64,000 nucleotides of DNA from contig NW_026570337.1 of assembly GCF_019649055.1 (NCBI RefSeq), positions 124,001 through 188,000 on the forward strand. Reading direction: 5' to 3'. This document shows, in pieces, positions 1 to 20,959 of the stretch (positions within the stretch are counted from its first letter, which is position 1; each line of letters begins with the position of its first letter). This DNA is from Paramacrobiotus metropolitanus (lineage: Eukaryota > Tardigrada > Eutardigrada > Parachela > Macrobiotidae). Under the pieces are notes generated by a model. It made no database searches, was not told the DNA's origin, and saw only the letters and a program-made list of their open reading frames with translations. A program made the translations under genes and the position numbers.

Positions 1-1288
1 TCAGTGCCTTTCTAGCTGTGTGAGCTATTCCGACATGTTCCATGGGTTCCCCCAACTTCGCCACATGAGGTCGGAAGAACGGTGGGATGTCGTCCTTCAT
101 AGTATTAGACACCAACTGATTCTGTGTCTTATAATGTGCCAGTCTCGCAGCAAAGACCTTTTGCCCCATCTTTTTTGCGGCATAGTCTTTAGGATCCACT
201 TGTAATCCTATCGATGCTCTTGCTGCAAGCAACTTGAAAGCTGGATTTACATATCGTAAAACGAACTGAGCCACATATTCCTGTTGTTCAGGATAATCTG
301 TGTAGTAGAATTGGGTCATTCCAACCGGGTCAGTCGTATCCAGCGGCACATCCAACAAACTCAAGTCCAGTAGGCTATGTAACCCATTCCTTCGGACAGG
401 GAGATAACAATCTCTTACAGAGTCGCGGGGAATGTATAATCGGTGGAAATGTCCTTCTTCCACTCCCCTTTTAATTTCTCTAGCATAGCCCGAATCGAAT
501 AAAAATTGGCGTAGCTGATTCAGTATGGTATGAATCTTATTAGCTTCCACCGAATCGCCTTCAATCCCCATGTATCGACAAATTTCCGCCTTTTGTTCAT
601 CGGTGTCGCTCATATTATATTGCATTTCGATTGTGTCAGGGTGTCGATTATCGAATCGGGAAGTCGTTCGTCGGTCAGTTCCGCGACGGTCGTCCGGTTC
701 ACGTTGACCTTCTTGTTCACGTCGTCCGCTCTGCGGCGGTTCATTACCCGTCGATGTGGACGGCTGGGGGTCACTGTCAAGGACCACGTTTCTTCGGTGT
801 ATCACGTTATCTCGGGACGCTTCTGCGACTGAACCGGGCCCTTCCATCGTGTCATCTTCCTGTACCACAGACGCTTCTGCGACTGAACCGGGCCCTTCCA
901 TCGTGTCGTCTTCTTGTTGTACCGCACTCACGATGGGATCCACTACATGGACTGTCGATTCCATCCTCTGGTATTTGGCGGTTGTATCTTCCCGTTCTGC
1001 GCTCGATGACCTTTTGCTTGCGCCAGACTCGAAGCCCCCATAGTACTTGGCTCTCTCCTGCCATCTCTTATCCTGTGGGTCCGGTGTTCGATTTCGCGTA
1101 CGTTCGCGTCTCTTGTCCCATGACCTTTCGGGTGTTGACATTCTGACGTTACGGTTACAGAACGCAACTCCCAACGGCACCTGATGACCTTTCTTTTCAG
1201 GTTCTGTACGGTCTGACTCCGTACGCCGTTGTTCTTCGCGTCCGTCGTCGCGTTTAAATCCTCTTGATCGCCGTGCCGGACATTTCAT
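1..1288 (-). CDS. Extra ORF 5: at least 429 residues, runs off the left edge
   Basis: ATG at 1288; I read this frame through to position 2 without a stop. It overlaps the preceding ORF by about 35 bases. The N-terminal ~225 residues are Arg/Glu/Asp/Ser rich and disordered-looking, with two tandem copies of an 18-residue unit (VVQEDDTMEGPGSVAEAS). From about residue 222 it becomes globular: MSDTDEQKAEICRYMG, then HTILNQLRQFLFDSGY, YIPRDSVRDCYLPVRRNG and FVLRYVNPAFKLLAARASIG. No family recognised. The overlap arrangement matches the other ORF junctions of the element. Confidence 0.6.
   Translation of the reverse strand, partial: MKCPARRSRGFKRDDGREEQRRTESDRTEPEKKGHQVPLGVAFCNRNVRMSTPERSWDKRRERTRNRTPDPQDKRWQERAKYYGGFESGASKRSSSAEREDTTAKYQRMESTVHVVDPIVSAVQQEDDTMEGPGSVAEASVVQEDDTMEGPGSVAEASRDNVIHRRNVVLDSDPQPSTSTGNEPPQSGRREQEGQREPDDRRGTDRRTTSRFDNRHPDTIEMQYNMSDTDEQKAEICRYMGIEGDSVEANKIHTILNQLRQFLFDSGYAREIKRGVEEGHFHRLYIPRDSVRDCYLPVRRNGLHSLLDLSLLDVPLDTTDPVGMTQFYYTDYPEQQEYVAQFVLRYVNPAFKLLAARASIGLQVDPKDYAAKKMGQKVFAARLAHYKTQNQLVSNTMKDDIPPFFRPHVAKLGEPMEHVGIAHTARKAL
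818..925. repeat. Two tandem 54-bp units inside extra ORF 5
   Basis: GACGCTTCTGCGACTGAACC starts at 818 and again at 872, and the 54-base units differ at a few positions. The length is a multiple of three, so the reading frame is kept and 18 residues are duplicated. Confidence 0.85.
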
Positions 1289-2009
1289 TTTGACGGGATT
1301 TACGCAGATCCTCCATACGTTTTTCAATTTCCTTCTTGATATATGGTGCTGGAGCGAAACCCTTCTGCAGTCTCAACTTTTCCCGCAACAGCGCGTCGAA
1401 TAAGTCCTGTTGCATAGCGGCCGGATCACTTGTCAAAGTATCGATTTGAATGATGAGGGACTGGCGCGTAAGCTGCGCTTCTTCTTCGTTGAGGCTGGCT
1501 GTAGGTACAGCTGAACTCGACGTGCTGGACAGTGCCTCTCGTGCGGCCTGTTCGCTTGCCCTTTTATTGTCCGCATTAATCTTCGCACGGAGTTCATCCT
1601 CCAGTCGTTGACGCTGCATCTGCTCCTGTTCCCTGTTGAACTGCTGACGGTATCCGTCCGTCAAGGGATCGTGTGGTGGTTCCATTGTTATATCCCAGAC
1701 AGGTTCTCCATCCTTCATGGATTGTCTGTATCGATCTTCGATCAACATTCTGTCTGGCAACCCCACATTCTGATAATGTGTTTTGGTAATTAAAATCCGG
1801 AATATGTCCGTGTTGCCTCGAATGGCTTCTCTCGTCACAATCCACATGGCATTCTCAAGTTTTGCCGCGCACGCCCAACATGGGTATTTGCCATCTCTTA
1901 TGGTGTTAGTGCGCTTACAGTCCGGACACTTCGGATTATGGCCCGTAGATCTGTCAATATCTGTTGCCGTTCCTGAGCTTTTAGGAGTGGCTTGACCTTT
2001 TTGTGCCAT
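1254..2009 (-). CDS. Extra ORF 4: zinc-ribbon-like protein
   Basis: ATG at 2009; ends TAA at 1256-1254 (251 residues from this ATG). Near the start it has CPDCKR, then CWAC about 13 residues later, a CX2C...CX2C zinc-ribbon-like pair. A region with WDITMEPPHDPLTDGYRQQF and a long Gln/Glu/Arg helical stretch (QEQMQRQRLEDELRAKI) likely to form a coiled coil come next. The C-terminal part is also helical. Family unknown. The next ORF starts inside its 3' end in another frame (ATG at 1288). Confidence 0.6.
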   Translation of the reverse strand: MAQKGQATPKSSGTATDIDRSTGHNPKCPDCKRTNTIRDGKYPCWACAAKLENAMWIVTREAIRGNTDIFRILITKTHYQNVGLPDRMLIEDRYRQSMKDGEPVWDITMEPPHDPLTDGYRQQFNREQEQMQRQRLEDELRAKINADNKRASEQAAREALSSTSSSAVPTASLNEEEAQLTRQSLIIQIDTLTSDPAAMQQDLFDALLREKLRLQKGFAPAPYIKKEIEKRMEDLRKSRQNEMSGTAIKRI

Positions 2010-2357
2010 TTTCTCCGTTTGAAATCTGCAATTAGAAAACAATCCATCATAGTAACCTTTCCACGTTAATCTTTTCCATTCCTATTCATTATCAAGGCTT
2101 TCTATCATTTTTACGCCTATTCCGTTACTGAGCTGAGACTTTCCTAGCTCCTGCTGCCCTTTCTATCACTGTAACGTGGTGACCTTTCTCACGTTATCAG
2201 CACTTTCTGACTACTGTGACCTTTTCTATTAGTCTTATTCAAGTTGACCTTTTCGCTCTCTCGTTTCTGTAACACTTTTCTCTTTCGTTTTGAACTATTT
2301 TATGCTTTTTCTGTAATATGCAGGGTTCATTACTCGCTGCATATTACACTGTCCCAT
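2010..2357 (-). other. Spacer between extra ORFs with three AAGGTCA words
   Basis: No ORF of note. Pyrimidine rich on the plus strand. TGACCTT occurs at about 2180, 2217 and 2245, so the word also accumulates outside coding sequence. This spacer could hold a splice acceptor for the next ORF. Confidence 0.5.
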
Positions 2358-3713
2358 TCATTCGGACTCCTTCGCCGGCGGACGTAGCGGCTTAAAGTCA
2401 ACTCGGCCATCTTTGTTAATATGAATAGCTTCGTCCGCGATCAAGGCTTCAACAGCGTTCTTGATCCATTCTTTATCCTTCTCGATGTTCAATTCTCCCA
2501 ATTCGTAGTGGACGGCCATGAAGTTCGAAAGGTGATTCCATAACGCTCCATTGTTACCGCCGATGGCGTCCAAAGCCACATCTGTGATGGCTATCTTCCA
2601 GGCCTCTAGCACCATTTTCAGCCTGGGCGTACGATCCTGGCCCTGTTTCGGAAGGTAGTAAATAACCTTGTTATATTTACATCCCAGTCTTCCTTCCTTA
2701 TATGCTCTTTTCAAGACTCGCTCGGTCATGCTAAGTGATGATCTTCCATTCGAGTTTTCAGCGACTTGTCTTTTCAGATCCGCACCAAGCATCTCGCCTT
2801 CGCTAATGTTCTGAAGTGCAGCTCGGACTTCGCTCCATGTCCGGTTAGTCACGTCCAACGGTGCGCCTAGCGTGTAGTCTGTCGGCTCTTTTATTTTTGT
2901 ACCGCTAGTCTTCTGGGGGAATGATGCCGAGTCCGTTGGGTCAGTTGTCTCCGTTTCATCAATCGTCAATTTTGCCAACGAGCCTGATGATGACTGAGCA
3001 GATTTCGGTTCATCGGTTTTCTCTTTCTGTGGCAAAGTCTCGTGACCTCCCATTTCACCTTCCGACTTCGATCGCTCTTTCTCAAAAACCTCCTTCAATG
3101 GTGCGAACAATGATTTCTGAAACACCTGTCGCGCGGAGGCCGCTTCTGCTTCTGCCGCTGCCTTGTCCATCGGGAGCATGACCTTTTCTTTCTCCCGTTT
3201 TTCTGAAGTCCCATGACCTTTCGGTTGAGTTTTTTCCGTCACAGTTCCAGATGTTTCTTGACCTTTAGGCTTTTCTGTCGTCGGTTCCAAAGGCGTTGGG
3301 ACAGAGGTGTTATCGTCACTCTCTTCGGATTCCGCGTCCATCGGTCCTTTCTTTTTCGTCGCTTTCGGTGCTTGTGCTTTAGTCCGAGCGGCTTCTTCTT
3401 CAGCTGTTAGCTGTGCGATCCGATTCAATATGGGAGTTGTCGGGTCTCCACTCGATGGCACCTTTTCCATCTCCTGACTGTCGGACATGTTACAATGGAC
3501 TTGTTTTTCCGGCGGTATCAGGCCTACTCTCGTGTATCGGATCGGATATCCTTTATGTGCGTTCGTTGTGGAAAGGATGTTCTGTTTTATCATCCTCGGC
3601 AACACGCGTTCAGTGGCCGTGTCGATTTCCTTTATCATTCCTTTTCCGTCATTCCAAACAGCATTGATGTATTGGCTGATCCGGTGGCTCGTTGACCCCA
3701 ACGGGCTTGTCAT
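2358..3713 (-). CDS. Extra ORF 3: 451-residue protein with helical C-terminus
   Basis: ATG at 3713, overlapping the end of the upstream ORF in another frame; ends at 2358. The N-terminal ~75 residues look folded (SQYINAVWNDGKGMIKEID). The centre is Lys/Glu/Thr/Pro rich and contains KGH and KGQ tripeptides encoded by AAAGGTCA words. The C-terminal ~150 residues are helical and conserved-looking (NNGALWNHLSNFMAVHYELG, then NAVEALIADEAIHINKDGRV), which may be a small winged-helix-like or helical-bundle domain. I do not recognise it. No membrane segment. Confidence 0.55.
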   Translation of the reverse strand: MTSPLGSTSHRISQYINAVWNDGKGMIKEIDTATERVLPRMIKQNILSTTNAHKGYPIRYTRVGLIPPEKQVHCNMSDSQEMEKVPSSGDPTTPILNRIAQLTAEEEAARTKAQAPKATKKKGPMDAESEESDDNTSVPTPLEPTTEKPKGQETSGTVTEKTQPKGHGTSEKREKEKVMLPMDKAAAEAEAASARQVFQKSLFAPLKEVFEKERSKSEGEMGGHETLPQKEKTDEPKSAQSSSGSLAKLTIDETETTDPTDSASFPQKTSGTKIKEPTDYTLGAPLDVTNRTWSEVRAALQNISEGEMLGADLKRQVAENSNGRSSLSMTERVLKRAYKEGRLGCKYNKVIYYLPKQGQDRTPRLKMVLEAWKIAITDVALDAIGGNNGALWNHLSNFMAVHYELGELNIEKDKEWIKNAVEALIADEAIHINKDGRVDFKPLRPPAKESE

Positions 3714-5109
3714 TCCCGCGATTGGCCCTTTCTACTCGCATTGAGGTATCTTCATTTGGAGTCGTCAGCGCCTTATCCGAACTTGACGGTCTGAATAATT
3801 TAGCCTTATACGCGAAGTTCGGATGTTTCTGGAGAAGTTTTCCCGCATTCCGAGCGTATTCTAATACCACATCGAACTTCTGTTTGGTGAAACTACGGTG
3901 CATTTCTTTTCTCAAATATTTCTTTAGCCCCGTTCTGAATTTCGATGTTACTGATGTCGTTCGTATTCGTGTAAAATTCTTCTCAGCTCCGTCAAATGCG
4001 TCGATGATTTCGTCAATCGTGGTCAAATTATCGCTGTCTGGATCTTCAAATTCTGCTTCATCTCCTGAATAATTAAGTTCACTGTCACCGTCCGGTTCGA
4101 TATAATTGGCCATTGCCAATGCGTCGATTTTCATGGCCTCTTTCCCTTTCTTTTTCGGCTTTGCGGGTTCGCTCTTTGCTTTTTTCCCTTTTTCCAGAAC
4201 CTTCGCTAGGCTTCTTGGCTCCGTGGTTCTTGATCGAGTCGTTTTCAGGTCCGCATGTGACCTTATGCTAACCGTCGAAGTACTTGGTAGGCTCGCTTCC
4301 GATGCTTCTGATTCTCGAGATGTCTCCCGTTTCGCTTTCTCACGCGTTCCTTTCTCCCTGCGCCCTTTCGTAGTGGATGCCGAGATGACGACTGGAACAA
4401 TCTGTTTCACAGCTATGACCTTTCCCTTGGGTGTTGACGACTCAGGCTCGGTGACCTTTAACTTTGATGTAGCCGATTTGATAATAAATTTCTTTAAAGT
4501 TGTAGGTGTCGGTGACCTTTCTTCAACTTCGGCGACTGATTCATCCAGTATTTCAACATCGTGAGACGGCGGTTTATCTTTCTTCCGTCTCTCCTCCTTC
4601 TTTTTCCCGGTGCTCGTGCTCTCGCTTTCGTCACCGCCCTTTTTCTTCTTATATTCTTCTTCCTTTCGTTTCTTTAGGAAGTCACCTTTCTTAGCCTTTT
4701 CCCGATTCATTGCTTCTTCCAGTTTAGCCGCTTTCCTCGGTTTAACGACCACTTTTGGAGGCTGATTATCTTCCTCGGCCATCTCGTCATCTTCATCGGC
4801 CGATTCTTCTGCTGAATCGTCGTTAGCTTCCTCCTCTTCCGAATCGTCCTGTTTCGATGGTCGCCTGGTACTCCCCGTTCCTGCCACTTCGGCTACGGAG
4901 GCCTCTGCCATCTCTCCGGCTCCACTTTCTTGTGCCGGGTGTTGGGCCTGAATTTCCAAATGTGGTGTTTCTTTAGTCTGTCCCTGTGTAACGATCTCCC
5001 ACAAAGGGTTTTTCTTCGCGTCGTAGAACACCGTTTTATACGCTCCGTTTTCCATTCTTCTTGTGAGTCGGAAATGGGCTTCATCTATCTCCGCTCGATG
5101 TCGCATCAT
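3649..5109 (-). CDS. Extra ORF 2: highly charged Lys/Glu/Ser-rich protein
   Basis: The frame is open from 5166, where it overlaps the preceding ORF by 17 bases; the first ATGs are at 5109 and 5106. The N-terminal ~35 residues are ordered-looking. A long acidic then basic low-complexity tract follows (SEEEEANDDSAEESADEDDE, then KKRKEEEYKKKKGG), with NLS-like clusters. The C-terminal ~110 residues look globular and helical (FRTGLKKYLRKEMHRSFTKQ ... KFDVVLEYARNAGKLLQKH). Family unknown. The composition suggests a nuclear or nucleic-acid-binding protein; that is inference. GATACCAGTAAGT in the ORF overlap resembles a splice donor. Confidence 0.55.
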   Translation of the reverse strand: MMRHRAEIDEAHFRLTRRMENGAYKTVFYDAKKNPLWEIVTQGQTKETPHLEIQAQHPAQESGAGEMAEASVAEVAGTGSTRRPSKQDDSEEEEANDDSAEESADEDDEMAEEDNQPPKVVVKPRKAAKLEEAMNREKAKKGDFLKKRKEEEYKKKKGGDESESTSTGKKKEERRKKDKPPSHDVEILDESVAEVEERSPTPTTLKKFIIKSATSKLKVTEPESSTPKGKVIAVKQIVPVVISASTTKGRREKGTREKAKRETSRESEASEASLPSTSTVSIRSHADLKTTRSRTTEPRSLAKVLEKGKKAKSEPAKPKKKGKEAMKIDALAMANYIEPDGDSELNYSGDEAEFEDPDSDNLTTIDEIIDAFDGAEKNFTRIRTTSVTSKFRTGLKKYLRKEMHRSFTKQKFDVVLEYARNAGKLLQKHPNFAYKAKLFRPSSSDKALTTPNEDTSMRVERANRGNDKPVGVNEPPDQPIHQCCLE

Positions 5110-5149
5110 GCTGATCAGTGTGTTCGCTTGAACTAAAGGATCTTGACGT

Positions 5150-7252
5150 TCACTTACTGGTATCAAGTTCCACAGCTGTTCGAGTGCCGCCCTGATTGGC
5201 GTGTTGGGCGCTCTCTTCTGACACGTCCCAAGGGGCGTATGGGATCGGATCTCCTGTTATCGGGTCGACAATTACTGCGGTTATGCAATCCGTTGTTCCA
5301 TCGCCAAAGTGGAGTGTCAGCGTCACTTTCCTGCACGTTCCATCAGTATATTTTAGGGTCGACTCGTAATCGTCCAATGTTCGTTTATTCGGATCTGGGT
5401 CTGCTGTCGGTTTTGGCTGAATTCTTTCTTTCGTCAGCAACCTTCCGTCCGCTGTATATGTGTATGCCAAATGGTCATCATTCGTGCCCACTTTAATGCG
5501 GATACATGCGTTCTCTTCATTCGCTATTTTCGACATCACGTGTTTCATCATCTGAATCAAGACTCTCGGGTTATGACGTTCTTTCGGGGGAATGAATTGT
5601 AACGCCTCAGTGACTTCTGTCTTTGACCTTTCCCCAATCTCAGTTTTGACTGACTTATCTGCCAGAGGGTTGTATGAGTCGATCTCTTTATTCGTCCCTT
5701 TATCGACTATCCGAGCCGTGACCTTTCGTTCGTTATGGTCCGTTCCAGTATATTTGACTGTGAAAGTCCTGCACTTCGGAAATCGAATTTGGGTATCTCC
5801 CGTGTCCGACGGTGTGGGTGGCGCACTCTTTCTACCCACTGGGATCGGTGCTTTACTCGTCGTGACCTTTTTCGTCCGCTGCTCTTTCTTGTCACTTTCT
5901 TTTGGACTGGTCGTCGGTGACCTTACTCTTTTCCCACTTTTTACGGTCCCGCTAGACGGCTCTGTAACCGAACCGGTACGTCCGCGTACTGATCCTGCGA
6001 TTGAGCTGGCCCTTGACCTTTCCGCTCGTTCGGTTACTTCTGCATCGATTTTTCTCTTTGTTTCCAGGAGAGCACTGTCTGACATCTCCTCTACTGGTGC
6101 TTCAACTAATGCCCGTGATGGCCCCGCCACGCTGCTTGTCAAAGGTCTCCTTTCTTTAGGAATTGTCTTAAGGAATATCTGTATCTTCTCAATCATCGGC
6201 GGCCATTTTCTGTTGGTTAAAGCCGGATGGTACTGTTTCATCGAGGCGATTCTGATCGCTAACTCTTTACGTTTAACTTCGATGATTTTAGTTTTTTCCT
6301 TCATCGCGATGTGGGCTGCTTCAATGATTGCATCCAGACTGAGTAATCTTCCATAGAATGCATGTTCATCCTCGACTCGCATGTGGATTCTATAAAGATC
6401 CCGACACATTCGGTTGAAATCCTGGATGGCCTCTGTATCAGCCGCTGTCAATCTGTCTCCGTTGCCCACTATCACGTTCAGTCGCGCATCATCTTCTTTC
6501 ATGTCTAGCGGAAGTTTCGGTGAATAATCATGCACGGTTGGTTCACCCGGGGGCGTTGCCCGTAGACCATCTGGTCCGACCTGCTCCAAATTTGGGCCCA
6601 GCGACGGCAGTACGCCTCGCGGTCGTGGTGAATCAAACCGATTTCCTCCTCGCCTCCCTCCTTTTTGTGGCGAGTTCCTGTGAAGTCGTTGCGCTCCCAG
6701 TTGCTGCGGTGTTCTCATACGAGGCGTTCCGATGTCTGACAATGATAGGCCTCCTGATTCTGGGAAAGGCGGCAATATCGGAGATGACCCTTGTGACTGG
6801 GTCGCTATCATTCCGCCAAATTCTCCATGTCCCATAAATCTACTCGATGTAGCCTGTTGCGGTGGCGGCATCAACACTCTTGCCGGTCCCATCATCACTT
6901 GCGGTGGTCCCATCGGTGGGGTATACGATCCCGGATGCGGTTGATAAGGGGCGCTCGTTATTTGTCCCGAATACTGGGTTCCGGCAGGTGAGCCGTGGTG
7001 CACCCAGTTAACCGTATCTTGGTAGTTCGTCGGCTGTCCTGGATCGTGATACACATAATACCCCGGGCCACCATAGTAACCTCCTTGGCCTAGTTCGTTC
7101 TGTGCCGTTCCGGCTGACGACGTCGACCCTTCACCATATGAAGTGTCATACCCGTATTCACCTTCCATTCTTTTTGGGGTCGATGTCTTTAACGGATTTC
7201 CGATGCTTTCCGAATCAGAATTATCTGAGTTTTGCCGTTCCAATCTGTCCAT
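5150..7252 (-). CDS. Extra ORF 1 downstream of integrase: 700-residue protein of unknown role
   Basis: ATG at 7252, uninterrupted to 5150. Residues ~1-240 are Gly/Pro/Tyr/Gln/Met rich (GGYYGGPGYYVYHDPG), resembling prion-like disordered regions, with an RRGGNRFDSPRPRG motif. Residues ~250-365 look helical. Residues ~365-490 are Ser/Thr/Lys rich. Near residues 495 and 633 are two similar beta-type units: FTVKYTGTDHNERKVTARIVD and LKYTDGTCRKVTLTLHF, each followed by a T-x-x-I/D pattern. No transmembrane segment or signal peptide is seen, so it does not look like an envelope. No known family recognised. It is intact despite decay of gag and integrase. Confidence 0.65.
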   Translation of the reverse strand: MDRLERQNSDNSDSESIGNPLKTSTPKRMEGEYGYDTSYGEGSTSSAGTAQNELGQGGYYGGPGYYVYHDPGQPTNYQDTVNWVHHGSPAGTQYSGQITSAPYQPHPGSYTPPMGPPQVMMGPARVLMPPPQQATSSRFMGHGEFGGMIATQSQGSSPILPPFPESGGLSLSDIGTPRMRTPQQLGAQRLHRNSPQKGGRRGGNRFDSPRPRGVLPSLGPNLEQVGPDGLRATPPGEPTVHDYSPKLPLDMKEDDARLNVIVGNGDRLTAADTEAIQDFNRMCRDLYRIHMRVEDEHAFYGRLLSLDAIIEAAHIAMKEKTKIIEVKRKELAIRIASMKQYHPALTNRKWPPMIEKIQIFLKTIPKERRPLTSSVAGPSRALVEAPVEEMSDSALLETKRKIDAEVTERAERSRASSIAGSVRGRTGSVTEPSSGTVKSGKRVRSPTTSPKESDKKEQRTKKVTTSKAPIPVGRKSAPPTPSDTGDTQIRFPKCRTFTVKYTGTDHNERKVTARIVDKGTNKEIDSYNPLADKSVKTEIGERSKTEVTEALQFIPPKERHNPRVLIQMMKHVMSKIANEENACIRIKVGTNDDHLAYTYTADGRLLTKERIQPKPTADPDPNKRTLDDYESTLKYTDGTCRKVTLTLHFGDGTTDCITAVIVDPITGDPIPYAPWDVSEESAQHANQGGTRTAVELDTSK

Positions 7253-7423
7253 TAACTGAGCTTACCTTCTGTAACAATGAAACAATACTGGTTAGCTTTT
7301 TAACGGTGATGACCTTTCCTTTACACCTTCCCAACTCCTATTTTTATTGTAATTAATCCCATTAATCATGTTTATGTGGGTTATTATTTTTCGCGTCCTT
7401 TAGTTATCCGATCGAAAAGTTCT
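7253..7423 (-). other. Short gap between integrase tail and the 700-residue ORF
   Basis: No ORF of note. It is AT rich with one TGACCTT word at about 7309. It could hold a splice acceptor or leader for the downstream ORF, but none is clear. Confidence 0.3.
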
Positions 7424-9050
7424 TTATCGGCTGCATCCTCGGGTTCGCCTTTCTGGGTCAGTAGTTCCATAGGAGTTAGTTTCTTTTTTCTTCTGTTTGA
7501 CCTTTCTCTCATTGATTGCTTTCGCTACGTCACGGCCCAACTGTTCAGCTTTTGATTTGACCGCCTCTATTTCCTCCTTTCTCTTTCTTATGAGGTCATT
7601 CTCATTGCCGGTAGCAGTGCGTGGTTTGAAAAAATTCGGATCGCGCTCTGATGTCTCGGCTCCTGTCTGCTGTTTCAAAAGGTCATCGACGTCCCCGGTA
7701 GCAGTGCGTGGTTCAAAAGAGTCATTTGCAGTACGCTCTGCTACTTTAGAACCTGATTCGGTCTCTTTTTCCAGTGACCTTTCTGCCAAATTTCCAGCTT
7801 CTGCGTTCAACTTAATTGTAACTGCTGTTTCGAAATCCTTATCTTCTTTCCTTTTTCTTCCTCTTTTCTTTGTTGGTTTATCTCCGTTTTCATTCTCGTT
7901 CATCCGAGCTTCATCCGTTTCGGGTAGCGGAGGTGGTTCGATAAAGGTCTCTTTTTGGGGCTTATGCTCTGCGTCTTCATCCGGCAATGGCGGGTGCCAT
8001 AACTTCAAGCGATCGATCGAGACCACCTTCAAGTCCGCTTCTTTCTTTGGGTTCTGCTCAATGACCTCCGCTTCGTTTGCTAGCGAAAAGCTAAGGATCT
8101 TCCATACTTTGTCATATTTTGATTTAAAGTCCGATTGGTTCTCTTTCTTTCCTTGTTTCGTATCCTTTGGAAGTCGTATCAACACAAGGTCACCCACCTT
8201 GAAATTCGGTTCTGACTTCCTCTTATTATATATCTCTGCATTCTTTTCGTAAGCATCTTTAATATTGCATTTCGCCACCTCTTCGGCAAAGGTCAAATTC
8301 TTTTTCATAGTTTCTACTCATTCATCTGGGGTCCCGTAGTCATCTGGCACATTCGTTTGTGTGACGACGTCCTCTGGCATGGTCATTTCTCTGCCGTGTA
8401 GCATATAGTATGCCGAATATCCGGTTGTGGCGTGTACGACTCTGTTCATCGCCGATATGACGTATGGGAGGTACTTGTTGAACTTCCTCTCATTTCCCGC
8501 TTTCAGATATTGCGCCAAGCCATCTGCAATCGTCTGCATTTGTCTTTCAACTTGGCCTTGACCTTCTGGATTATACGCCGTTCCAAATGTGTGTTTGATC
8601 TTAAACACATTGGTGACCTTTGTCAACACTTCGGCCGTAAAGTGCCGTCCACGATCCGTATGTAGGATGTGCGGTGCTCCGTTTACCAATATCACATGCT
8701 TTACGAACACCTTTGCAAACTCTTTGGCCGTTGCCGTCTTCATTTGTACCGCGATCACATATTTCGTCAGTTGATCGATGAACACCGCTATGTACTTATA
8801 TCCCCGTTTCTTCGTTGGTAACAACGGTCCTTTCAGATCCGCGTAGACTCGGAAGAACGGATGTCCCACCTTTATCTCTTGCAATTTACCGAGTGGGCAT
8901 TTCCTCGGTGTCTTACGAAACTGGCATCCTTGACAGGCGAGTATATAATTTTTAACGTCTGTACTCATTCTGTCCCAGTAATATCGAAGTCGGATTGCTG
9001 TCAATGTCTTTTCGAATCCCAAATGTCCTGCCGCTTTCTCGTCGTGTGTA
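7424..9050 (-). pseudogene. Integrase, DD35E core intact, broken by a frameshift and a TGA
   Basis: The integrase frame begins inside the end of the RT ORF. The HHCC zinc module is visible (AAGHLGFEKT ... CQGCQF), but its first His lies in the overlap, where a CACA dinucleotide run puts the two ORFs out of frame. The catalytic core has D in YADLKGP, D in LHTDRGRHF and E in GQVER with family-like spacing. An in-frame TGA at 8320-8318 separates the core from the C-terminal part. That part has the KVGDLVLIRLPKD ... KYDKVWKILSF ... SIDRLKLWHPP pattern of an integrase C-terminal beta domain, then a Lys/Glu-rich tail with a repeated FEPRTATG/FKPRTATG unit. Integrase inserts the cDNA into host DNA. 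Confidence 0.85.
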
Positions 9051-12006: not shown

Positions 12007-12146
12007 CAATTTCTTCGAGGTTCAACAACGACCGTTTTGTTCCTTCAATTGGTCGCTGTTCTTCATTTTGATCGGCTGACCTTTCGTCAGCTTTTGCCTC
12101 TGTTACTGGGTTTTGCTGTTCATTGGATATCCTTTCCACCTCCTCT

Positions 12147-13313: not shown

Positions 13314-13362
13314 CTGCTCTTCTTCAGCTATTCGTTTCAATACCCGTAACCTTTCACTCTTT

Positions 13363-13494
13363 TTATCCTACTGGGATTAGCGTTTTATTTGTCGTTTGGG
13401 CATTTCCCGTCCGTTTTGCAAGTTCGGTGACCTTTCCGACTTTGGCAACTGGTTTCGGATTATCTTCTTTTTCTTCTTCGCCTTCATTATCCAT
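13363..13494 (-). CDS. Small 43-residue ORF coupled to the protease stop by TGATG
   Basis: It starts at ATG 13494-13492, overlapping the protease stop by two bases, and ends at TAA 13365-13363. The product is acidic at the start (MDNEGEEEKEDN) then Lys/Thr rich. No domain. It may be the visible start of a longer ancestral frame; the next ORF opens in another frame just downstream. It is listed because the TGATG overlap is a plausible translational coupling site. Confidence 0.3.
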   Translation of the reverse strand: MDNEGEEEKEDNPKPVAKVGKVTELAKRTGNAQTTNKTLIPVG

Positions 13495-14688
13495 CAGTAC
13501 AAATTTTTTTCCCGGAAATCAAATCCCAGTAACACCTGTACGTCATCACATTTCGGTCGGACGTAGAAGGAATGTTCGCTAGTCTTTTTTCTTAAGGTTA
13601 CTGGTGCTACACAATAATGTGTCACCAGGAATCCTGACGTTCCGCTAATTCTGTTAATCTTTACCAATCTGTCAGGTGGCAATGGGAGCATATGAAGTCC
13701 ATTTTTCTCGCAAAACGGTTTACTGATCAGCGACGTCTCGGCGCCAGTTTCCAGCATTGCGGTGACCTTTATGTCTCCCACTTTCACTTCATGTGTATAC
13801 GCTTCAATTCTTTTGGGCAATTTTCCGTTTTGAATCTTCAATGTGTGAATCTCACATTTTACAGGGATTAGCGATACTGGTCCCGGATCCATATCGGGAA
13901 GCACTTGCCCTTTCGCTGGAGTGCTATGACCTTTCAGTATCTCACTCAACTTGTCAATCCTGTGTGGCACGTCAGTTCGGACATCGTAGAATTTCTGCGG
14001 CTTTTTCTTATCTGCCTGCTTCTCTGTAGCCATTTTACCACTGGTGACCTTTTCAACATTCTGCACTTGCTCATTTGCTTTTGTGCCGGTCGTATGACCC
14101 TTAGGCACTTCATTTATCGTCTGATGGATCAGTTCCTCTATACGCTTTTCATTTCGTTTATTTCGCAGCTTCTCAATGACTTCACTTGTTATTTGGTCGG
14201 CTCGCTTCAGTTCATCTGCTTCGCTGTCTGGTGACCTTTCATATGTAACCATATCATGTCCCTTTTCGGTCATCCATTCAATCACCTTTGCAGATACTTC
14301 ATTGTTCGTTTTCGTCGGGTCGATTTGCGAAGACATCTCGTCTGTTCGGGCCGGTGACTTGTCATTGGCATCCTGTTGCAGTGCTTGTGATAAGTCCCGT
14401 GACCTTTCAACTGCACTGCTCTGTTGCATTTGCGCCATCTCATTTGACCCTCCTTTCTGTTCATTTTGCGCTAAGTCCTGTGCCCTTTCACTGCGCTTTA
14501 TAACAAATCCGCCGCTTGACAGCTTTTGTATGGGAACTTTTTCTCCATAATTCGACGGTTTATCTTTCGGTGGTGCATTTCGCGAGTAATTCGCGTCGGC
14601 GAATGTCTTCTTATATTCCTCTGTATTGAATGGTGGGACTGGTTTTCGATAACCCTTGAGCTGGTTTAGCGGTAACCAACTCTTCTAA
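13494..14688 (-). CDS. Protease-like ORF with altered catalytic residue
   Basis: The N-terminal two thirds is a Glu/Lys/Thr-rich linker containing several AAAGGTCAC words. The C-terminal ~100 residues look like a retropepsin: KVTAMLETGAETSLIS, a middle beta-rich stretch, and VLLGFDF near the end. Retropepsins use D-[TS]-G; here the codon gives ETG (about 13745-13750), Glu in place of the catalytic Asp, so this copy is probably inactive. The ORF ends TGATG: the protease stop overlaps the ATG of the next small frame, an arrangement used for termination-reinitiation in some retroelements. Confidence 0.7.
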
Positions 14689-15600
14689 TCTTTTCCTTTC
14701 ATGTTGTGTTCGTAACTCTTGCATGTCCCAGTAATCCTCTTGCGACATTCCCGCTTTCTGCTTTGCTTTTGGCGTCACGGGTATCCACATCCCGTGATTC
14801 CCATTTGGTCTGTATTCTACTTTTTGCCATATTTCCTTCCGTTGCAGCGTTACTGCATCCACAAGTGAGTCATCGGAATTCTGTTGTGCCGGTTCGCTAT
14901 TCTTCTGCTGCGCTGTTCGCAGTGTCAAGTCTGTTTCTTGACCATTTAACACGGCGCTTTCACCGTGACCTTTAGCGTTCGCACTTGCTCCTCGACCTTT
15001 CACTTGAACTTTTCCTACGGAAGGTGACTTTTCATCTTTACTATTAGCAGTGATATTCTGCTCCATCCATTTTTGCCTTATTAACTTCTCATCTTCGTCC
15101 TCTGAACAATTCCAGAACTTTGGCTTTATCCCTTCGTAACAGTCGCAACGTGACTCATTCACTTTATCGTTTTCTGCCAAGTATTTTCGGAATTTCGCAT
15201 GTTGCTCATTTTCTTCTTGTGCAGTATCAATCTGCGGCTTATTCTGGTTCAACAGCGCCTGTTGAATTTTCGCGTTCCGTTGTGCGCGTCGTTGCGCTAG
15301 CACTTCTTCGCTGCAGTACGGTGACCTTTCATTTTGCTGCACTTTTTGCAGTGTCGCGCTACCGTCACAACAATTTCCACTCGCAGTACCGTTCTGCGGT
15401 GACCTTTTATTCACTTGGACGTTTCCACTCGCAGTACCATTCTGCGGTGACCTTTGATTCTGTGACGGTATCCTTATAACCGTTCCAATTTCTTTTTGCG
15501 ATGACTGCATCCATATAGCCGTTTCTTTTTGCGCTGACGGCATCCATATAGCCGTTGCAGTGGTCACATTCACTGCAGTACCGTTCTGCAGTGGTGACCT
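14611..15600 (-). CDS. N/Q/S-rich ORF with RSPQNG repeats, between Gag and protease
   Basis: The frame is open from upstream of 15573 to a TAA at 14611; no clear ATG start. The N-terminal third has tandem repeats: ATAIWMPSAQKE / TAIWMQSSQKE, then three units around RSPQNGTASGN. The RS of each repeat is encoded by an AAAGGTCAC-type word. The rest is charged and Gln rich. The C-terminal frame overlaps the protease ORF by about 77 nt in a different frame (14611-14688), suggesting recoding or an indel. No known domain. By position it could be the Gag-Pol linker. Confidence 0.5.
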   Translation of the reverse strand, partial: RSPLQNGTAVNVTTATAIWMPSAQKETAIWMQSSQKEIGTVIRIPSQNQRSPQNGTASGNVQVNKRSPQNGTASGNCCDGSATLQKVQQNERSPYCSEEVLAQRRAQRNAKIQQALLNQNKPQIDTAQEENEQHAKFRKYLAENDKVNESRCDCYEGIKPKFWNCSEDEDEKLIRQKWMEQNITANSKDEKSPSVGKVQVKGRGASANAKGHGESAVLNGQETDLTLRTAQQKNSEPAQQNSDDSLVDAVTLQRKEIWQKVEYRPNGNHGMWIPVTPKAKQKAGMSQEDYWDMQELRTQHERKRLEELVTAKPAQGLSKTSPTIQYRGI

Positions 15601-15649
15601 TTCCGTTCCCTCTTTATCCGGTGGTTTAGGGTCGGGGCGATCAGTAGGC

Positions 15650-16298
15650 TCACCGGCGCCTACTGATCTTGCCCGTTTCCCTGAACCGGCGCCCCACCTT
15701 GTTGCGCGCCTTGCACGTTTCCTTGTACATTTCCTCCTTGTTGTTGTCCGATATCATTTGCCGGGTTAGGATTCTGTCCGTTGCCATTGTTGTATTGGCC
15801 ACCACCCTGTTGGTAGTTTCCTTGGCCGCTCCGTTTCCACCGCCTCGGTTGCCGCCACCGTAGTTTCCACGACCGAAGCCTCTGTCCCTTCCTCTGAAGC
15901 CGCCGCGGTAGCCGCCTCGATTGCCACCGCCTTGGCCGCCATTTCCGTTTCCGTAGTTACCGTTTCCATCACCTTGTTGATTTTGGAAGTTCGCTTTGAC
16001 TTGGTACCATTGCGCAATGAGGTCATATCCATTTGCCACCGCTTGGCGCCAGCCGCCCGAATTGCGCAGCCGTTGCCATTCTCTGAAGGCGAACAGGTTC
16101 GGGTTCTGGTCCGGCGGCGTGTTCGCGAACTTGCATCCCTGCGTCTGGTGATTACCGTACATACAGTTTTGGCACATCTGTACGCCGTTTGCCACCCATC
16201 CGTCGATCATCTGGAACTTGAATTCAGTTCGTGACCCTTGCTGACCTTGCTGATTCTGGAAGTTATTCTGATTTCCATTCCAATTTCCATTTCCATTT
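15650..16298 (-). CDS. Gag nucleocapsid: zinc knuckle plus RGG-rich tail
   Basis: This is in the same frame as the capsid ORF after its TAA. It contains CQNCMYGNHQTQGC, an exact CX2CX4HX4C knuckle that binds nucleic acid in retroelement nucleocapsids. A long Gly/Asn/Arg-rich tract with RGG-like repeats follows (about 15830-15970). Near 15830 the Gly/Gln/Asn-rich character moves to another frame, which stays open to a TAG at about 15658, so a further indel is present. First ATG at 16210. Confidence is high for the knuckle and moderate for the exact ends. Confidence 0.75.
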
Positions 16299-16300
16299 CC

Positions 16301-17333
16301 TTAACCGTTTCCGCCAAAGTTTCCGTTACCCATTCCCTGTTGTGGTAACCCAGTATTCATAGGGGCCACGTTCTGTGGTACCGGTGGAGCCACATTCTGA
16401 GGTACCGGTCTCACTTGGGCCGCCGCCTGTATCGCAGCTACCATTGCATACGTACGTAGCTGTCCCGTCTGGCTGTCGATAAAGGTCACTTCTTTGGTGA
16501 TTTCTTGCACCGGAGCCTCCCTTCGGTATTCAACCGGCTGCTGCACTGGTGCTGCTGCTGCCATTCTCTGTTGCGATACCGATTCGACTTGACCTGTGCG
16601 GATAGTGACGTAATCTTGGTTACGTTGACCCTTTGGTGCTTTGTATTTCTCCTCTCCCGTTGCCCAATGTAGGAAGAAGTCCTTAACATCGGTTGGCGTT
16701 CTGCACTTTTGTGTACGCAAGGCCTTGTAGAGTTCATTGTCCACTCTACATCCTTCGATCAAGAAACCCACTGCTTGTTTTTCCGTAATGATCCGTTTTG
16801 CTTTGAACCGCATCATTGCCTGATAATACTGGTCGAGCGATTCTTTTCCGAGTTCGAATTTTCTTGCGTAGGCCTCACGTAAGCCTAGGACCTCTTCATC
16901 TCTGTCACCATATTCATCTTTAAATTTGTCCATCCACTCCGTTACCGAGTACTCAATTCCGTCCTCTGATGCGATATCCTTTTCACCTTCGAACCATGTC
17001 TTGGCAGGGCCTTTCACCGCTGGCTATTTCGATCATGATTTGATCGTCGGTGAGCTGGTAGGTTCTCTGAGTTTCTTTTACAAGTCTTGTCCAACCATTC
17101 ACGGTGTCGCGACTGCCGTCAAAGGTTACAAGTGTCGTTTTCCGAGCCATCGAATTGAGCGCTTTTGTCAATTGCGCCGCTGTCGTTTCTACTCTCGGGT
17201 CATCCTCTTCTTCGCTACTTTCATCGTCATTTTGGTTTCGTTTTGCCTTTCCGTAACGGGACTTCCGTGGGCGCTCTTGCCGGCTGGAGGGTCTGTCCCG
17301 TCGCCCTTCGTCAATGAGCACATTTGTTTCAAT
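16301..17333 (-). pseudogene. Gag capsid region, frameshifted
   Basis: The lower part (16301-17017) has the retrotransposon Gag capsid signature: GPAKTWFEG, then a W..F..F...Y motif (EWMDKFKDEYGD), a basic segment, and SLDQYYQAMMRFKAK. Capsid proteins of this family assemble the intracellular particle. The upstream part (16983-17321) holds an acidic/basic linker and the start of the capsid fold (VTFDGSRDTVNGWTRLVKET) but is in a different frame. A one-base-type shift at about 17017 separates them, inside the conserved domain, so it is a mutation rather than programmed recoding. The C-terminal tail is Pro/Gln/Val rich. The frame ends at a TAA at 16303-16301 and is open again beyond it. Confidence 0.8.
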
Positions 17334-17756
17334 ATGTGGGGAAACTGAGAAGGATCGCCGTGACTCGTATGTGGATAACCTCCTGATGGTGGCTCTTTGT
17401 CATCTTTGACCTTTTCACCATCCTTTTCGTTTTTGACACTTCCTCTGCCGGTACCAGTTCGCAGCGGCATCTCAAAGTGGAAGCTTTTGCCCGTGCCCGT
17501 TTCTTGTGCCTTACTGTAACTGGGCGGGGGTGACTCCACCGTTGCCGTTCGAACTCCATATTGCAGGAGCTGTTCATCCTTGTGTTTGTTCGACATGTTG
17601 AGGGCCTTATTCTCGTCTTCGAGGCGTCTAACTTTCAGCTGGAATTTTTCCTTCTCAGTTTTCAAGTTCTGGTTTTCCTCCTTGACCTTCAACATGTGCT
17701 GGTGGAGTTGGAACGTTTTCTCCTGGATGACCTTTTCGGTGTCATTCTTCACTTTT

Positions 17757-18545
17757 TTTATGTGTTCCACCAACTGGGTCACATCTCTTTCCAATTTCGT
17801 ATATTCCTCAGCTGCTACTTTGAGCTGGTTTTTTGTTTGGGTGACCTCATCCTCTCCCGTCATTACCGTTTGGGTCATATCGATCAACTCGGTATTGAGT
17901 TTGATGATTTCTTGTGTCTTCTGGTGGACAGTTTGTTGCCATTCTTTATCTTTCAGTTCGCTGTGACCTTTACGTCCAGCAGGTGTGCCTCGTGTTCCCA
18001 CCTCATGCCTTGTTCGGCGATTGTCTTGGCGGCTTCCTTTAACTCTTTGATCTCTTCGGTGACCTTTTTGTTATCTTCTTTCAACACCTGGTTCTCTTCC
18101 ATCACCTGTTTGATTTCGTTGCTCAACCGTGCGCCTCGGTGGCTCACTTTTTTTGTGTTCCACCAACTGGGTCACATCTCTTTCCAATTTCGTATATTCC
18201 TCAGCTGCTACTTTGAGCTGGTTTTTTGTTTGGGTGACCTCATCCTCTCCCGTCATTACCGTTTGGGTCATATCGATCAACTCGGTATTGAGTTTGATGA
18301 TTTCTTGTGTCTTCTGGTGGACAGTTTGTTGCCATTCTTTATCTTTCAGTTCAAGCGCTGTGACCTTTACGTCCAGCAGGTGTGCCTCGTGTTCCCACCT
18401 CATGCCTTGTTCGGCGATTGTCTTGGCGGCTTCCTTTAACTCTTTGATCTCTTCGGTGACCTTTTTGTTATCTTCTTTCAACACCTGGTTCTCTTCCATC
18501 ACCTGTTTGATTTCGTTGCTCAACCGTGCGCCTTCGGTGGCTGTA
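17757..18545. repeat. Tandem duplication (~395 bp) inside the coiled-coil ORF
   Basis: The segment from TGTGTTCCACCAACTGG (17761) to CTCAACCGTGCGCC (18135) is repeated almost perfectly from 18154 to 18532. The right copy has 4 extra bases (CAAGCGCTG versus CGCTG), so only one copy keeps the frame. Near identity indicates a recent event. Confidence 0.9.
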
Positions 18546-18660
18546 AGATCTCGCAGGTCTTTAGCCACTTTGGCGGCTTCATCGGCCCTTCTCTGGTGCT
18601 CATATGATTCCTTCTGGAGGATCCCGATATTCTCATCACGCAGCTTCAGGTCATTCCTGT

Positions 18661-19223
18661 ATGGCGTACCAAACGGGCCAGAGTTTTCCAGACAAATGCT
18701 AATGACAAATGCTTTTCGGTTTTCAAACAAATGCCACTGACAAATGCTTTTCACAACAGACAAATGTTTTTTAAAAAATGTTTACCAGACAAATGCTTGT
18801 GACAAATGCCGAAAACTTTCAGACAAATGCCGAAAACTTTCGGACAAATGTTACTGACAAACGTCAGATCAGAAGCCTACCACCGCAAATCTGAGTGCGG
18901 ACTGCGTGGTTGCGTTCAACGGTTTGACTCGCCATAATGCTGGTAATAGTTTGCCACGATTACTCAGCATTGTGTTCGAGTCAGACGTGTTGAACGCAAC
19001 CACGGTCTCTCAAATTCTGCATCGACATTAATCGGTAACATTTGTCTGAAAGTTTTCGACTATCCAAACATTGTCTGTAAACTTTCGATTGTTAAATGAA
19101 AACATTTGTCAGAAACATTGTCTGTTAAATTGTTTTGAAAAACATTGTCAGTGTATTGATTGAAAACTAAAAAGCATTTGTCGTAAACATTTGTCTGGAA
19201 AACTCTGGCCCGTTTGGTACGCC
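18661..19223. mobile_element. Inverted-repeat MITE inserted in the Gag coiled-coil ORF
   Basis: The ends are inverted copies: TATGGCGTACCAAACGGGCC at left and its complement at right, extending through an AGAGTTTTCCAGACAAATG segment. The flanks on both sides read ATTCCTG, a 7-bp target duplication. Deleting the insert plus one flank copy leaves the coiled-coil frame continuous, which shows it is a later insertion. ACAAATG-like words recur inside, and a nested inverted pair (GGTTGCGTTCAAC / GTTGAACGCAACC) lies near the centre at about 18910-19000. No coding capacity; superfamily not assigned. Confidence 0.8.
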
Positions 19224-19912
19224 ATATTCCTGAGCTTGAAAACTTCGGTGGTGTTTGTCAGTAACCGTTGGGTAACATTGGCGAGTTTGGTCGCATATTC
19301 GCCTCTTTTAGCTTCCGCTTCGGTGACCTTTTATTTCAATGCGTCGCATTCATCCTTCAGTTCGGCTAAGTGTCGCGACCTTTCCGCTGATTCTTCCGAC
19401 ATACTCTCGTTAAGGTCACTGACTGCAAGATGACCTTCCATTTCTCTGTCATCGACCATTTTCAAGTATTCTTCCGCGAGTTCTCTTTGACGTTCATATT
19501 TAATTTTCCATTCATCCGCCGTGCTCTCCAAGTCGGCCTGTTGTTGTTCCAATTCATATATTCGGGTTTCCAGCGACGACAGTTTTTCCCGGTTTTCTTT
19601 TGTTCGTTTCATTGCCTGACTTTCCTTGGCCTAGAGTTCCTTTTCCAGCTCCCTCACACGAATCCTCAGAGTTGTTGTGGGGCTGTTCGGTGATGGCGGT
19701 CGAACATTGATGACCTTTCCTGTTTGTGTCCGTTCAATTAGGTGCTCCGGTATATCTTTGAAAGGTGTTATCCCTTCAGCACGGTCAGCCTCCTTCATCG
19801 CGGTTTGGAAGGACATATTCATCGTCGCTTCATCATCCGTGAAGTAAGACTCATTCGATTCATCTGAGACCATTGGGAGTTGCCCAAAGGTCATCGCCTG
19901 CGGTTTTATCGT

Positions 19913-20449
19913 TCAGTGAATGGTCATCCGATCCCAGTTCAGCCAGTTCCTCTTCGGTAACCTTTGTGTTTCTCTCTTCCACTTCTTCCACTTGAGCCAG
20001 GTTCCATTTTTTTCCTGCTCATTCGTTCCGCTAATGGTAGCATCCAGCTGTAATGCTCCCACTGCTTCCGCTCCTTTTTCTGTGGACTTTTCCTCCCCAG
20101 TGACCTTTTTCTGGTTCATCGGTTTGCCTCCCGCCGTAGACGCGGGAGTTTGGTTTCCGTCACCGCTAGAGCTCTCTTCGTTCTGTATAGCTCCGAGCGC
20201 CACTTGGTATGTACTGTCACTGCCTTTGCTGTCCTTTCTTGCAAAAGGTCACAGCTGCTCGGGTCTGTCTATCATGTCCGACTGGACGCGCGAGCGACTT
20301 GTATTCCTTCTTATAAGGATCAACTGCGCCTTGCTGTGATCCTCGGGAGCTCCTGCCTCCCTGGCTGCTGTGTTATGTCGGTTCCTCGTTGTCTTTGTCC
20401 ATGTTGATCGGATAACTTGGACGCTCCTGCCAATTGTTCTCACACACAC
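19913..20449 (-). CDS. Leader ORF of the retroelement, interrupted by one in-frame TGA
   Basis: One minus-strand frame is open from 20449 to 19913 except for a single TGA at 20251-20249. That stop lies inside a reverse-oriented GTGACCTTT word. No ATG begins the frame near 20449 (the first codon is GTG), so the real start is unknown. The upstream part is Arg/Ser rich; the downstream part is Glu/Lys/Ser rich with a Lys-Trp cluster near its end. No recognisable domain. By position it could be the N-terminal part of Gag, and it is followed directly by the next frame at 19894. Function unknown; the TGA may be a decay mutation. Confidence 0.35.
20419..20432 (-). other. Possible primer-binding site
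   Basis: On the minus strand the sequence TGGCAGGAGCGTCC follows ACAAT, just before the first ORF. A TGG start (complement of a tRNA CCA end) right after an LTR end is the usual arrangement of a primer-binding site. I could not match it to a specific tRNA, so this rests on position and the TGG start only. Confidence 0.3.
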
Positions 20450-20474
20450 ACGTTATTGTATGGTTTAATCAATT

Positions 20475-20885
20475 GTCCTTAAGGTCACTTTACTTTGTTC
20501 GAGTTTCTTCTAAGTCCTTGTTAAAGGTCACTTTTTGATTGAAAAATTCGACTGTTTCGTTTAAAGGTCACTTTTTCGATAGAAAGTTCGAGAGTTTTGC
20601 CCTAAAGGTCACTTTTCAGACAAAACTTCGACACCGCTTTTACGGTTCAGAACACGTTTACGGACAAAATCCTACAGCTGCTGATATCGCTGTACTACTA
20701 ATCAACTCAATTTCAACTTCGTTAAAGGTCACTGTTGGTCACTTTCAGATCTTAAAGGTCACTTAGATAGGTCAATTTGGTCAATTCCAACTTTTCGGTA
20801 AAGGTCACTTTTCAGAGTCAAAGGTCACGTTCTGGTCTTAAAGGTCACTTTCCAATTCAACTCAACTCAAAAGGTCACTTCCCGA
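20475..20885. repeat. Array of ten AAGGTCAC words in the retroelement leader
   Basis: Ten copies of (T)AAAGGTCACTT-like words occur on the plus strand at about 20481, 20525, 20563, 20605, 20726, 20756, 20803, 20821, 20841 and 20871. Irregular spacers of roughly 15-120 bases separate them. On the element's sense strand they read AGTGACCTTTA, the reverse complement of the word scattered through the ORFs. The spacers are not repeats of each other, so this is not a simple tandem satellite. AGGTCA is the DNA half site of nuclear receptors; whether anything binds here is not known. Confidence 0.9.
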
Positions 20886-20959
20886 TTCGGTTATCTCATC
20901 TCAGATCAAATTTCCCGTTACTGCTCAGTTTCAATGGAAAATCCCCGTTTACCTTGTTT

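Follow-up and report, generated by a model that had tools for sequence, protein, structure and literature searches.

A 64,000-nucleotide stretch of the genome of Paramacrobiotus metropolitanus (the window) raises the question why a giant retroelement should repeat one short word along its length, regardless of reading frame. An initial annotation had counted about 80 copies of AAGGTCA/TGACCTT within positions 700–20890 and about 9 elsewhere, and the recount gave 83 (61 on the minus strand, 22 on the plus strand) and 10, respectively. AAAGGTCAC occurred 41 times within 700–20890 and three times elsewhere in the window. Measured against an order-3 Markov model, AAGGTCA ranked first among the over-represented 7-mers of positions 1–20890, and the next seven all overlapped the word. 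One-mismatch neighbours were mostly at or near chance; the excess is one of the exact word. Codon-preserving shuffles (n = 500), named beforehand as a possible refutation, yielded a mean of 7.9 sense words (maximum 17) against 52 observed, an about 7-fold excess, and a mean of 0.84 antisense words (maximum 4) against 9 observed, an about 11-fold excess. In three other copies of the element, each of the 13 open frames held more sense words than any of 200 shuffles. Consequently, an effect of composition or codon usage was rejected for the window copy and these three others. As had been claimed, sense words fall in all three coding frames (20/15/17; antisense words 0/3/6) and words also lie between the open reading frames, at 2180, 2217, 2245 and 7310. 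The earlier statement that protein selection cannot explain them is borne out.

Judged from its sequence, the carrier is a Ty3/gypsy-type LTR retroelement of 24.4 kb on the minus strand. The annotated extent of 700–20890 rightly pointed to a giant retroelement and was too narrow: it spans 24,394 bp, with the outer edge of its 5′ LTR at window position 22117 and its other end outside the window, to the left, at C117:121724. It is flanked by two LTRs of 345 bp with 98.55% identity (5′ LTR 21773–22117, minus strand; 3′ LTR C117:121724–122068, left of the window), and its Pfam matches on the minus strand follow the PR-RT-RNase H-INT order of Ty3/gypsy elements (Metaviridae), the Ty3/gypsy-type placement of the reverse transcriptase being one by database similarity and not by a tree. 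Directly after the 5′ LTR stands TGGTAGCAGAG, a putative primer-binding site, which presumably fits the animal initiator-Met tRNA. Between LTR and word array, the wordless leader (20891–21772, minus strand) carries a TGACGTCA box and several CCAAT boxes; a 30-bp pattern with this box had 112 matches genome-wide at three mismatches or fewer, and its reversed control had none. The leader word array itself (20481–20880) holds ten antisense words on the plus strand, mostly AAAGGTCACT, which lie 20–46 bp apart except for a single gap of 120 bp; in other copies, spacings of 29 and 41–43 bp are common.

The Gag region (16304–18781, minus strand), upstream of PR, is broken up into several open frames in the window copy; its Gag_p24 match is weak (E 0.085, under the cut-off), and it can be aligned with the gag of other copies, where the open frames are long. 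A Gly/Asn/Arg-rich, nucleocapsid-like stretch (15653–16300, minus strand) shows a Cys/His knuckle-like motif when read by eye, and a Pfam scan of 15650–16210 gave zero matches. On the same strand follow the aspartic protease (13494–14684; PF13650, E 1.9e-6), reverse transcriptase with RNase H (9001–12021; PF00078, 1.6e-25; PF17917, 2.4e-33) and the integrase (7427–9100), which comprises a core (8318–9022; PF00665, 2.9e-13; PF17921, 3e-11) and a C-terminal extension with zero Pfam matches in 7424–8308. Additional open frames downstream of pol (2–7261, minus strand) are matched in three other long copies and are partly or mostly absent from three shorter ones. Within four of these accessory frames Pfam returned nothing above and two weak matches below the cut-off; frame 1254–2042 weakly resembles a zinc ribbon (PF08271; E 0.009; score 16 bits, cut-off 29).

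Body words, AAAGGTCA, extend over 700–20200 on the minus strand, mostly in sense orientation; they occupy each of the three coding frames as well as the gaps. Antisense body words lie within 7679–19893 on the plus strand (starts 7679, 8186, 8289, 9454, 11674, 11830, 12439, 13017, 16482, 19412 and 19887). The predominance of the sense orientation noted at first holds for the total and fails for the leader array (20.5–20.9 kb) and for most words beside the 3′ LTR, which are antisense. Nucleosome phasing of the body words was rejected, as their gap variation lay within the random range and lacked a nucleosome period in all seven copies compared. Tandem duplication as the sole source of the words was likewise rejected: tandem arrays of the word were found in the leader only, and the flanks of the body words differ.

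The comparison set comprised the window copy and six others, one of them partial (C11, whose left end is nominal). They were chosen from the first 100 places listed, for having several words together, and therefore do not represent the 112 leaders at random. The six further copies hold 105–119 words each, the six complete copies 91–119 at lengths of 17.9–24.7 kb, and the density ranges from 3.7 to 6.5 words per kb. A 5′-leader site array, as in the gypsy-type insulator, was present in 7/7 copies with 10–18 antisense words in the kilobase that holds it; outside this kilobase each copy carries 63–80 sense words, spread over its ORFs and 3′ region. Words are most numerous in the two shortest copies, from which most accessory frames are missing.

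Decay of the words in aligned copies had also been named in advance as a possible refutation, and conservation was found instead. With gapped 7-mers excluded, pairs of copies agreed at 90% of the sense words and 79% of the antisense words in pol, compared with 43% for other 7-mers, and in gag-PR they agreed at 76% of the antisense words compared with 38%. Divergence at synonymous third positions amounted to 4.3% within words and 23.5% outside. In a non-coding 3′ block, 25/28 and 25/29 words were kept, taking each copy as reference, against 48% of other 7-mers. At the places covered by all seven copies, 24 of 62 word sites were intact throughout, against 3.2% of other 7-mer states. Evidently, the word is under selection and is conserved even where proteins change as a result.

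How far the proteins give way is seen in comparison with sister families. Those whose main RT stretch is 48–59% identical lack the word, with five occurrences in the 44 kb read, and a relative at 74% identity bears the word. In one pol frame the sense word stands at 38 of 55 positions able to spell it synonymously, and the antisense word at 10 of 21 possible ones, a sense surplus exceeding codability; wordless sister ORFs offer only 14 sense-spellable positions in 2124 amino acids and 10 in 1306. Residues that the sisters conserve were swapped to spell the word: their KVA, QGR/K and ERR/C read KVT, QGH and ERS in the word-bearing element (45 of the 136 comparisons were dropped for gaps). That the words merely reflect composition or codon usage, or result from repeat expansion or mutational bias, is extremely improbable in view of the codon shuffles, the exactness and footprint of the word, its conservation at synonymous sites and the existence, within this genome, of sister loci that lack it, even though the A-rich sense strand favours the word over its complement and the leader is partly a tandem array.

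The form in which the word is recognised can be narrowed down by its orientation. The initial annotation had considered action in the RNA, by packaging or protein binding, which is less supported by our data: pol and gag-PR conserve antisense words almost to the degree of sense words, all seven copies read have an antisense leader array, and tolerance of G:U pairs is not significant. A single-strand RNA-binding or packaging site, AAAGGUCA, would agree with the sense excess in the ORFs, somewhat above codability; it is very improbable, as the leader array, a region commonly searched for packaging signals, holds the reverse complement only and antisense words are conserved in the body. Pairing of leader antisense words with body sense words inside one RNA, leading to folding or packaging, would draw on the perfect 8-nt complementarity between the antisense array and the mostly sense body. 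The G:U trend of the sense words points this way (17 of 34 losses were G:U-compatible, 12.6 expected, p 0.086); the excess is not significant, the antisense words gave 0 of 6, and pairing needs no single fixed word. Pairing was rejected on the G:U result, and we regard it as quite improbable. Since antisense words are conserved, double-stranded DNA is favoured as the recognised form.

For the sense word, divergence falls at offsets −1 to +6 and climbs at once beyond, so that the conserved footprint reads AAAGGTCA; A is favoured before the word, and G is disfavoured behind it. AAAGGTCA is the NBRE, the monomer site of NR4A receptors as given in PMC12539977, in agreement with the initial assignment. 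In the host, an NR4A-type DNA-binding exon lies within C45:297490–297840 (one exon read), which among solved structures matches NR4A proteins best (E 3.1e-21), foremost NGFI-B (1cit); other nuclear-receptor DNA-binding domains are encoded as well. AA precedes AGGTCA in 648 of 822 occurrences. TCA preceding AGGTCA would make what we take to be an ERR/FTZ-F1 style site, TCAAGGTCA, and this type was rejected, as TCA stands there in just 10 of 822.

With a probability of roughly one half, we propose that a sequence-specific protein recognises the word as its binding site in double-stranded DNA, the host NR4A-type receptor being the most likely candidate binder, and that the leader array is an enhancer or insulator whose protein is also recruited by the body words. 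Dependence on the word would have arisen in a single lineage of giant Ty3/gypsy-type elements of P. metropolitanus. Beside the conserved TGACGTCA and CCAAT boxes, the dense leader array would act like the Su(Hw) array of gypsy, and the body words would recruit the array-binding protein along 18–25 kb of element DNA, which may keep this long provirus accessible to transcription or carry its cDNA.

Instead, the element itself may encode the binder, be it the Gag nucleocapsid, the integrase or an accessory product, which would act on cDNA or RNA; the word would then be a self-recognition mark by which the 18–25 kb genome is sorted or compacted, comparable to the uptake sequences by which bacteria mark their own DNA. 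The spread of the word through the element and its absence from sister loci are consistent with this, as are the similar totals in the six complete copies and the weak zinc-ribbon match. We consider it unlikely, given that the integrase has the sole DNA-binding domain above the Pfam cut-off among the element frames scanned on the sense strand (all except 2–1372), that the shortest copies, short of accessory frames, are the richest in words, that the word is a known receptor site and that the leader array is enhancer-like.

Several observations speak against the proposed explanation. Other receptors share the half site, the sense surplus in pol (38:10 used, 55:21 possible) goes beyond codability, both LTRs of the window's element hold zero words, and body spacing is random. 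Furthermore, the antisense footprint is uneven (divergence 15.6% at the first base and 13.5% at the last), and antisense conservation in the accessory region is weak (40% vs 30%, 30 scorable pairs). We know of no regulatory function requiring about 100 sites within coding DNA.

More tentatively, the host-factor site may be the organising code of the whole element genome, outranking codons and conserved residues. Some 90–120 words, whatever the length, would then label the element's DNA as one unit, to be transcribed, brought into the nucleus or partitioned, much as uptake sequences label bacterial DNA.

Retroviruses and LTR elements such as MMTV carry hormone or nuclear-receptor sites, in the known cases few in number and located in the LTR. 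The present element shares a nuclear-receptor-type site with them and differs in that the window's LTRs are without sites and its body holds about 100. The planarian Burro is a giant Ty3/gypsy element, likewise above 20 kb and with extra open frames; to our knowledge, no word saturation is known from such giants. The DNA uptake sequences that Pasteurellaceae and Neisseria possess are also short words, with hundreds to thousands of copies per genome, genes included; here the carrier is an animal retroelement with 3.7–6.5 words per kb, and no uptake machinery is known. According to PMC7168160, the Su(Hw) insulator of Drosophila gypsy comprises 12 degenerate sites in 350 bp. Both elements have a 5′-leader array of sites, that of gypsy for a host DNA-binding protein; here, the word is a different one, it is antisense in the array and mostly sense in the body, and selection on it overrides codons and residues.

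A literature search, mostly at title and abstract level and with most subscription journals beyond reach, showed no report of comparable word saturation among the papers listed, and the part of a tardigrade transposon paper that was available contains no mention of Paramacrobiotus. That leaders and LTRs of retroelements can hold arrays of sites for host factors is already known; here such a site runs through gag, pol and the accessory frames as well as non-coding DNA, under selection strong enough to replace polymerase residues that sister families conserve. With wordless sisters in the same genome, the element offers a clean natural system for the effect of a dense intragenic field of receptor sites and bears on how a selfish element gets bound to a host regulator.

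Beyond the element, 17 stretches of viral contigs matched the search pattern and none of the 17 encodes a relative. A genome-wide host word was rejected: the 119.6-kb background sample held 26 words, compared with 10.6 from the order-3 Markov model and an anagram mean of 14.4. This excess is modest, three of the 26 words share one flank, and AAAGGTCAC occurred four times in the sample, equal to its reversed form.

The 7-mer AAGGTCA, whose sense and antisense copies lie on the − and + strands of the window, respectively, occurred 83 times between 700 and 20890 (61 on −, 22 on +) and ten times in the remainder, close to the roughly 80 and 9 of the initial annotation. Protease, reverse transcriptase with RNase H and integrase were recognised on the − strand in Ty3/gypsy order, and further open frames beyond pol reach the left window edge. 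The element measures 24,394 bp from its 5′ LTR (21773-22117, −, 345 bp) to its 3′ LTR left of the window (C117:121724-122068, −, 345 bp; the window itself spans C117:124001-188000), the two LTRs being 98.55% identical. Its gag and pol are split into several frames; other family copies carry long open gag and pol frames. The polymerase's top protein-database matches carry the annotation Paramacrobiotus metropolitanus, the closest with 92% identity.

The 15 sense open frames (18,471 bp) contain 52 sense words, where 500 shuffles preserving protein and codon usage gave a mean of 7.9 and a maximum of 17, and 9 antisense words, where the same shuffles gave a mean of 0.84 and a maximum of 4. The sense words are distributed over all three reading frames (20, 15 and 17), as had been noticed initially, and the excess upholds the earlier view that protein selection is unable to explain them. 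When the 24 single-base variants of AAAGGTCA were counted on the sense strand, most were at or under chance level; the clearest excess was TAAGGTCA (4 vs 0.3 expected), a few others reaching 3-4 vs 1.5-2.5. It is the exact word that counts.

Six more copies were fetched from word clusters among the genome matches listed. Across pol they share 84-88% identity with the window copy and 86-97% with one another. The six copies with both LTRs, window copy first, contain 91, 107, 105, 105, 119 and 115 words within 24.4, 24.7, 20.3, 24.5, 18.2 and 17.9 kb; in the seventh, which is partial, 107 were counted over the stretch read. In three other copies, 13 of 13 open frames had more sense words than any of 200 codon shuffles.

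Alignment of the copies showed the word to be conserved. Counted over pairs, which are not independent because the copies are mutually related, sense words in pol were intact in the aligned place in 90.1% (750 pairs) and antisense words in 78.7% (282), compared to 43.4% of 221,908 for other 7-mers. The corresponding values were 81.6% (944), 76.4% (144) and 38.2% for gag-PR and 74.7% (249), 40.0% (30) and 29.7% for the accessory region (4 copies), where antisense conservation was barely above the control. Counted site by site, 24 of 62 words were intact in all seven copies vs 3.2% of 29,337 other 7-mer states (highest of 20,000 random draws, 14.5%). The words are also conserved at synonymous sites: third positions of same-residue codons differed in 87 of 2,044 cases inside words (4.3%) vs 23.5% of 53,952 outside. 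For sense words the divergence was low only at offsets −1 to +6 and rose immediately on both sides, which identifies AAAGGTCA as the conserved unit. The fewer antisense words gave an uneven profile (15.6% at the first, 13.5% at the last base). Two short copies (C9 and C7b, stretches L015-L020) have lost most accessory frames, but the final 2.8 and 3.0 kb before their 3′ LTR survive as a non-coding remnant holding 31 and 34 words. This block lacks any frame above 177 codons, and 25 of 28 words (25 of 29 with the other copy as reference) are shared vs 48% of other 7-mers.

An antisense word array, typically AAAGGTCACTTT with frequent spacings of 29 and 41-43 bp, was present in the leaders of all seven copies read. 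Between the 5′ LTR and the array (window 20891-21772) all seven leaders contain TGACGTCA, which we take to be a CREB-type site, and several CCAAT boxes, presumably NF-Y sites; this stretch resembles a promoter or enhancer that lies outside the LTR. The array resembles in its repeated sites the gypsy Su(Hw) insulator, described with 12 sites in 350 bp (PMC7168160), and it may act in a similar way.

For comparison, eight sister loci were picked from the 151 matches listed for a related-protein piece (150 of 1043 candidates scored). Over the main RT stretch they share 48-59% identity with the window element, and their 44 kb contain 5 words, under the flank-sample rate of 0.22 per kb. L059, a 3-kb word-rich relative at greater distance (RT identity 74% over 537 and 64% over 345 residues), has 10 words, and 5-8 of 12-16 family-copy words are intact in it vs 8.5-11.6% of other 7-mers. 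With wordless sisters and a word-bearing relative, the word habit apparently originated in a single lineage and persisted there. Throughout the assembly (169.8 Mb, 533 contigs) AAAGGTCAC occurred 19,414 times vs 3,461 for the reversed word, AAAGGTCACTTTT 585 vs 56, and the family leader gave 112 matches vs 0 for the control. At 42-63 AAAGGTCAC-type 9-mers per copy (six copies), 112 copies would account for ~6,000 of the ~16,000 excess; older relatives such as L059 are a likely source of the rest, and further word-rich relatives or remnants are probably present. Three background words (window 23536; L010:95; L011:2798, both fetched stretches) share a flank ending in CAGGATGA, which hints at another short repeat family bearing the word.

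The protein accommodates the word at particular places without overall loss of conservation, since mean residue identity to the sisters was 0.48 at word codons and 0.51 elsewhere. For 17 words in RT-INT of a single copy, the residues differed from those of 8 sisters in 73 of 91 scorable comparisons and agreed in 18 (45 further ones were unscorable). KVA became KVT (8/8 sisters; at a second site 7/7), QGR or QGK became QGH (8/8) and ERR or ERC became ERS (8/8); LRS (8/8) and EGQ (7/7) were retained and spelled using the word. One pol frame of 3059 residues has 55 positions able to spell the sense word synonymously, 38 of them used, and wordless sister frames have 14 per 2124 and 10 per 1306 residues. 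For the antisense word 10 of 21 positions were used. The sense excess in coding DNA stems partly from codon limits (in the first frame TGA terminates translation), with possible sense and antisense positions at 55:21 vs 38:10 used.

As antisense words are conserved too, recognition is probably independent of the RNA strand, which weakens the role in the RNA suggested initially. Pairing of leader with body words in the RNA received no significant support: G:U-compatible losses were 17 of 34 for sense words (12.6 expected, p 0.086) and 0 of 6 for antisense words. In 648 of 822 cases AGGTCA follows AA; TCA, presumably the ERR/FTZ-F1 site type, precedes it in 10 of 822, which argues against ERR and FTZ-F1 as readers. 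Among 63 zf-C4 matches in the host genome 20 were translated, and for one the best solved relatives were NR4A receptors (1cit, NGFI-B, E 3.1e-21), followed by RXR (E 1.8e-16). The word equals the NBRE site of NR4A receptors (PMC12539977). A survey devoted to C4-type zinc-finger proteins in tardigrades includes the species and, in the part available, leaves NR4A unmentioned (PMC12941274). Antisense conservation, NBRE match, AA preference and the host match together point to a host NR4A-type receptor, predicted from sequence to act on double-stranded DNA via the word with roughly even odds. The NR4A proposal of the initial annotation thereby gains a matching site and a candidate protein, binding itself staying a prediction. 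Body words may serve as intragenic enhancer or anti-silencing sites, or in cDNA carriage. The strongest rival to the host receptor is a binder encoded by the element itself.

Long + strand open frames opposite the element (17534-18436, 5577-6353 and 7473-8249; 259-301 codons) are perhaps a composition effect. On contig C7 (L021-L024) two family copies face each other with their 5′ ends ~5 kb apart. The host flank contains a weak DDE transposase match below the cut-off (27268-28038, −) and a frame with a BTB_2 domain (31727-32215, +). A 19-bp unit forms a tandem array at window 50642-50757 (6.1 copies, 93% matches).
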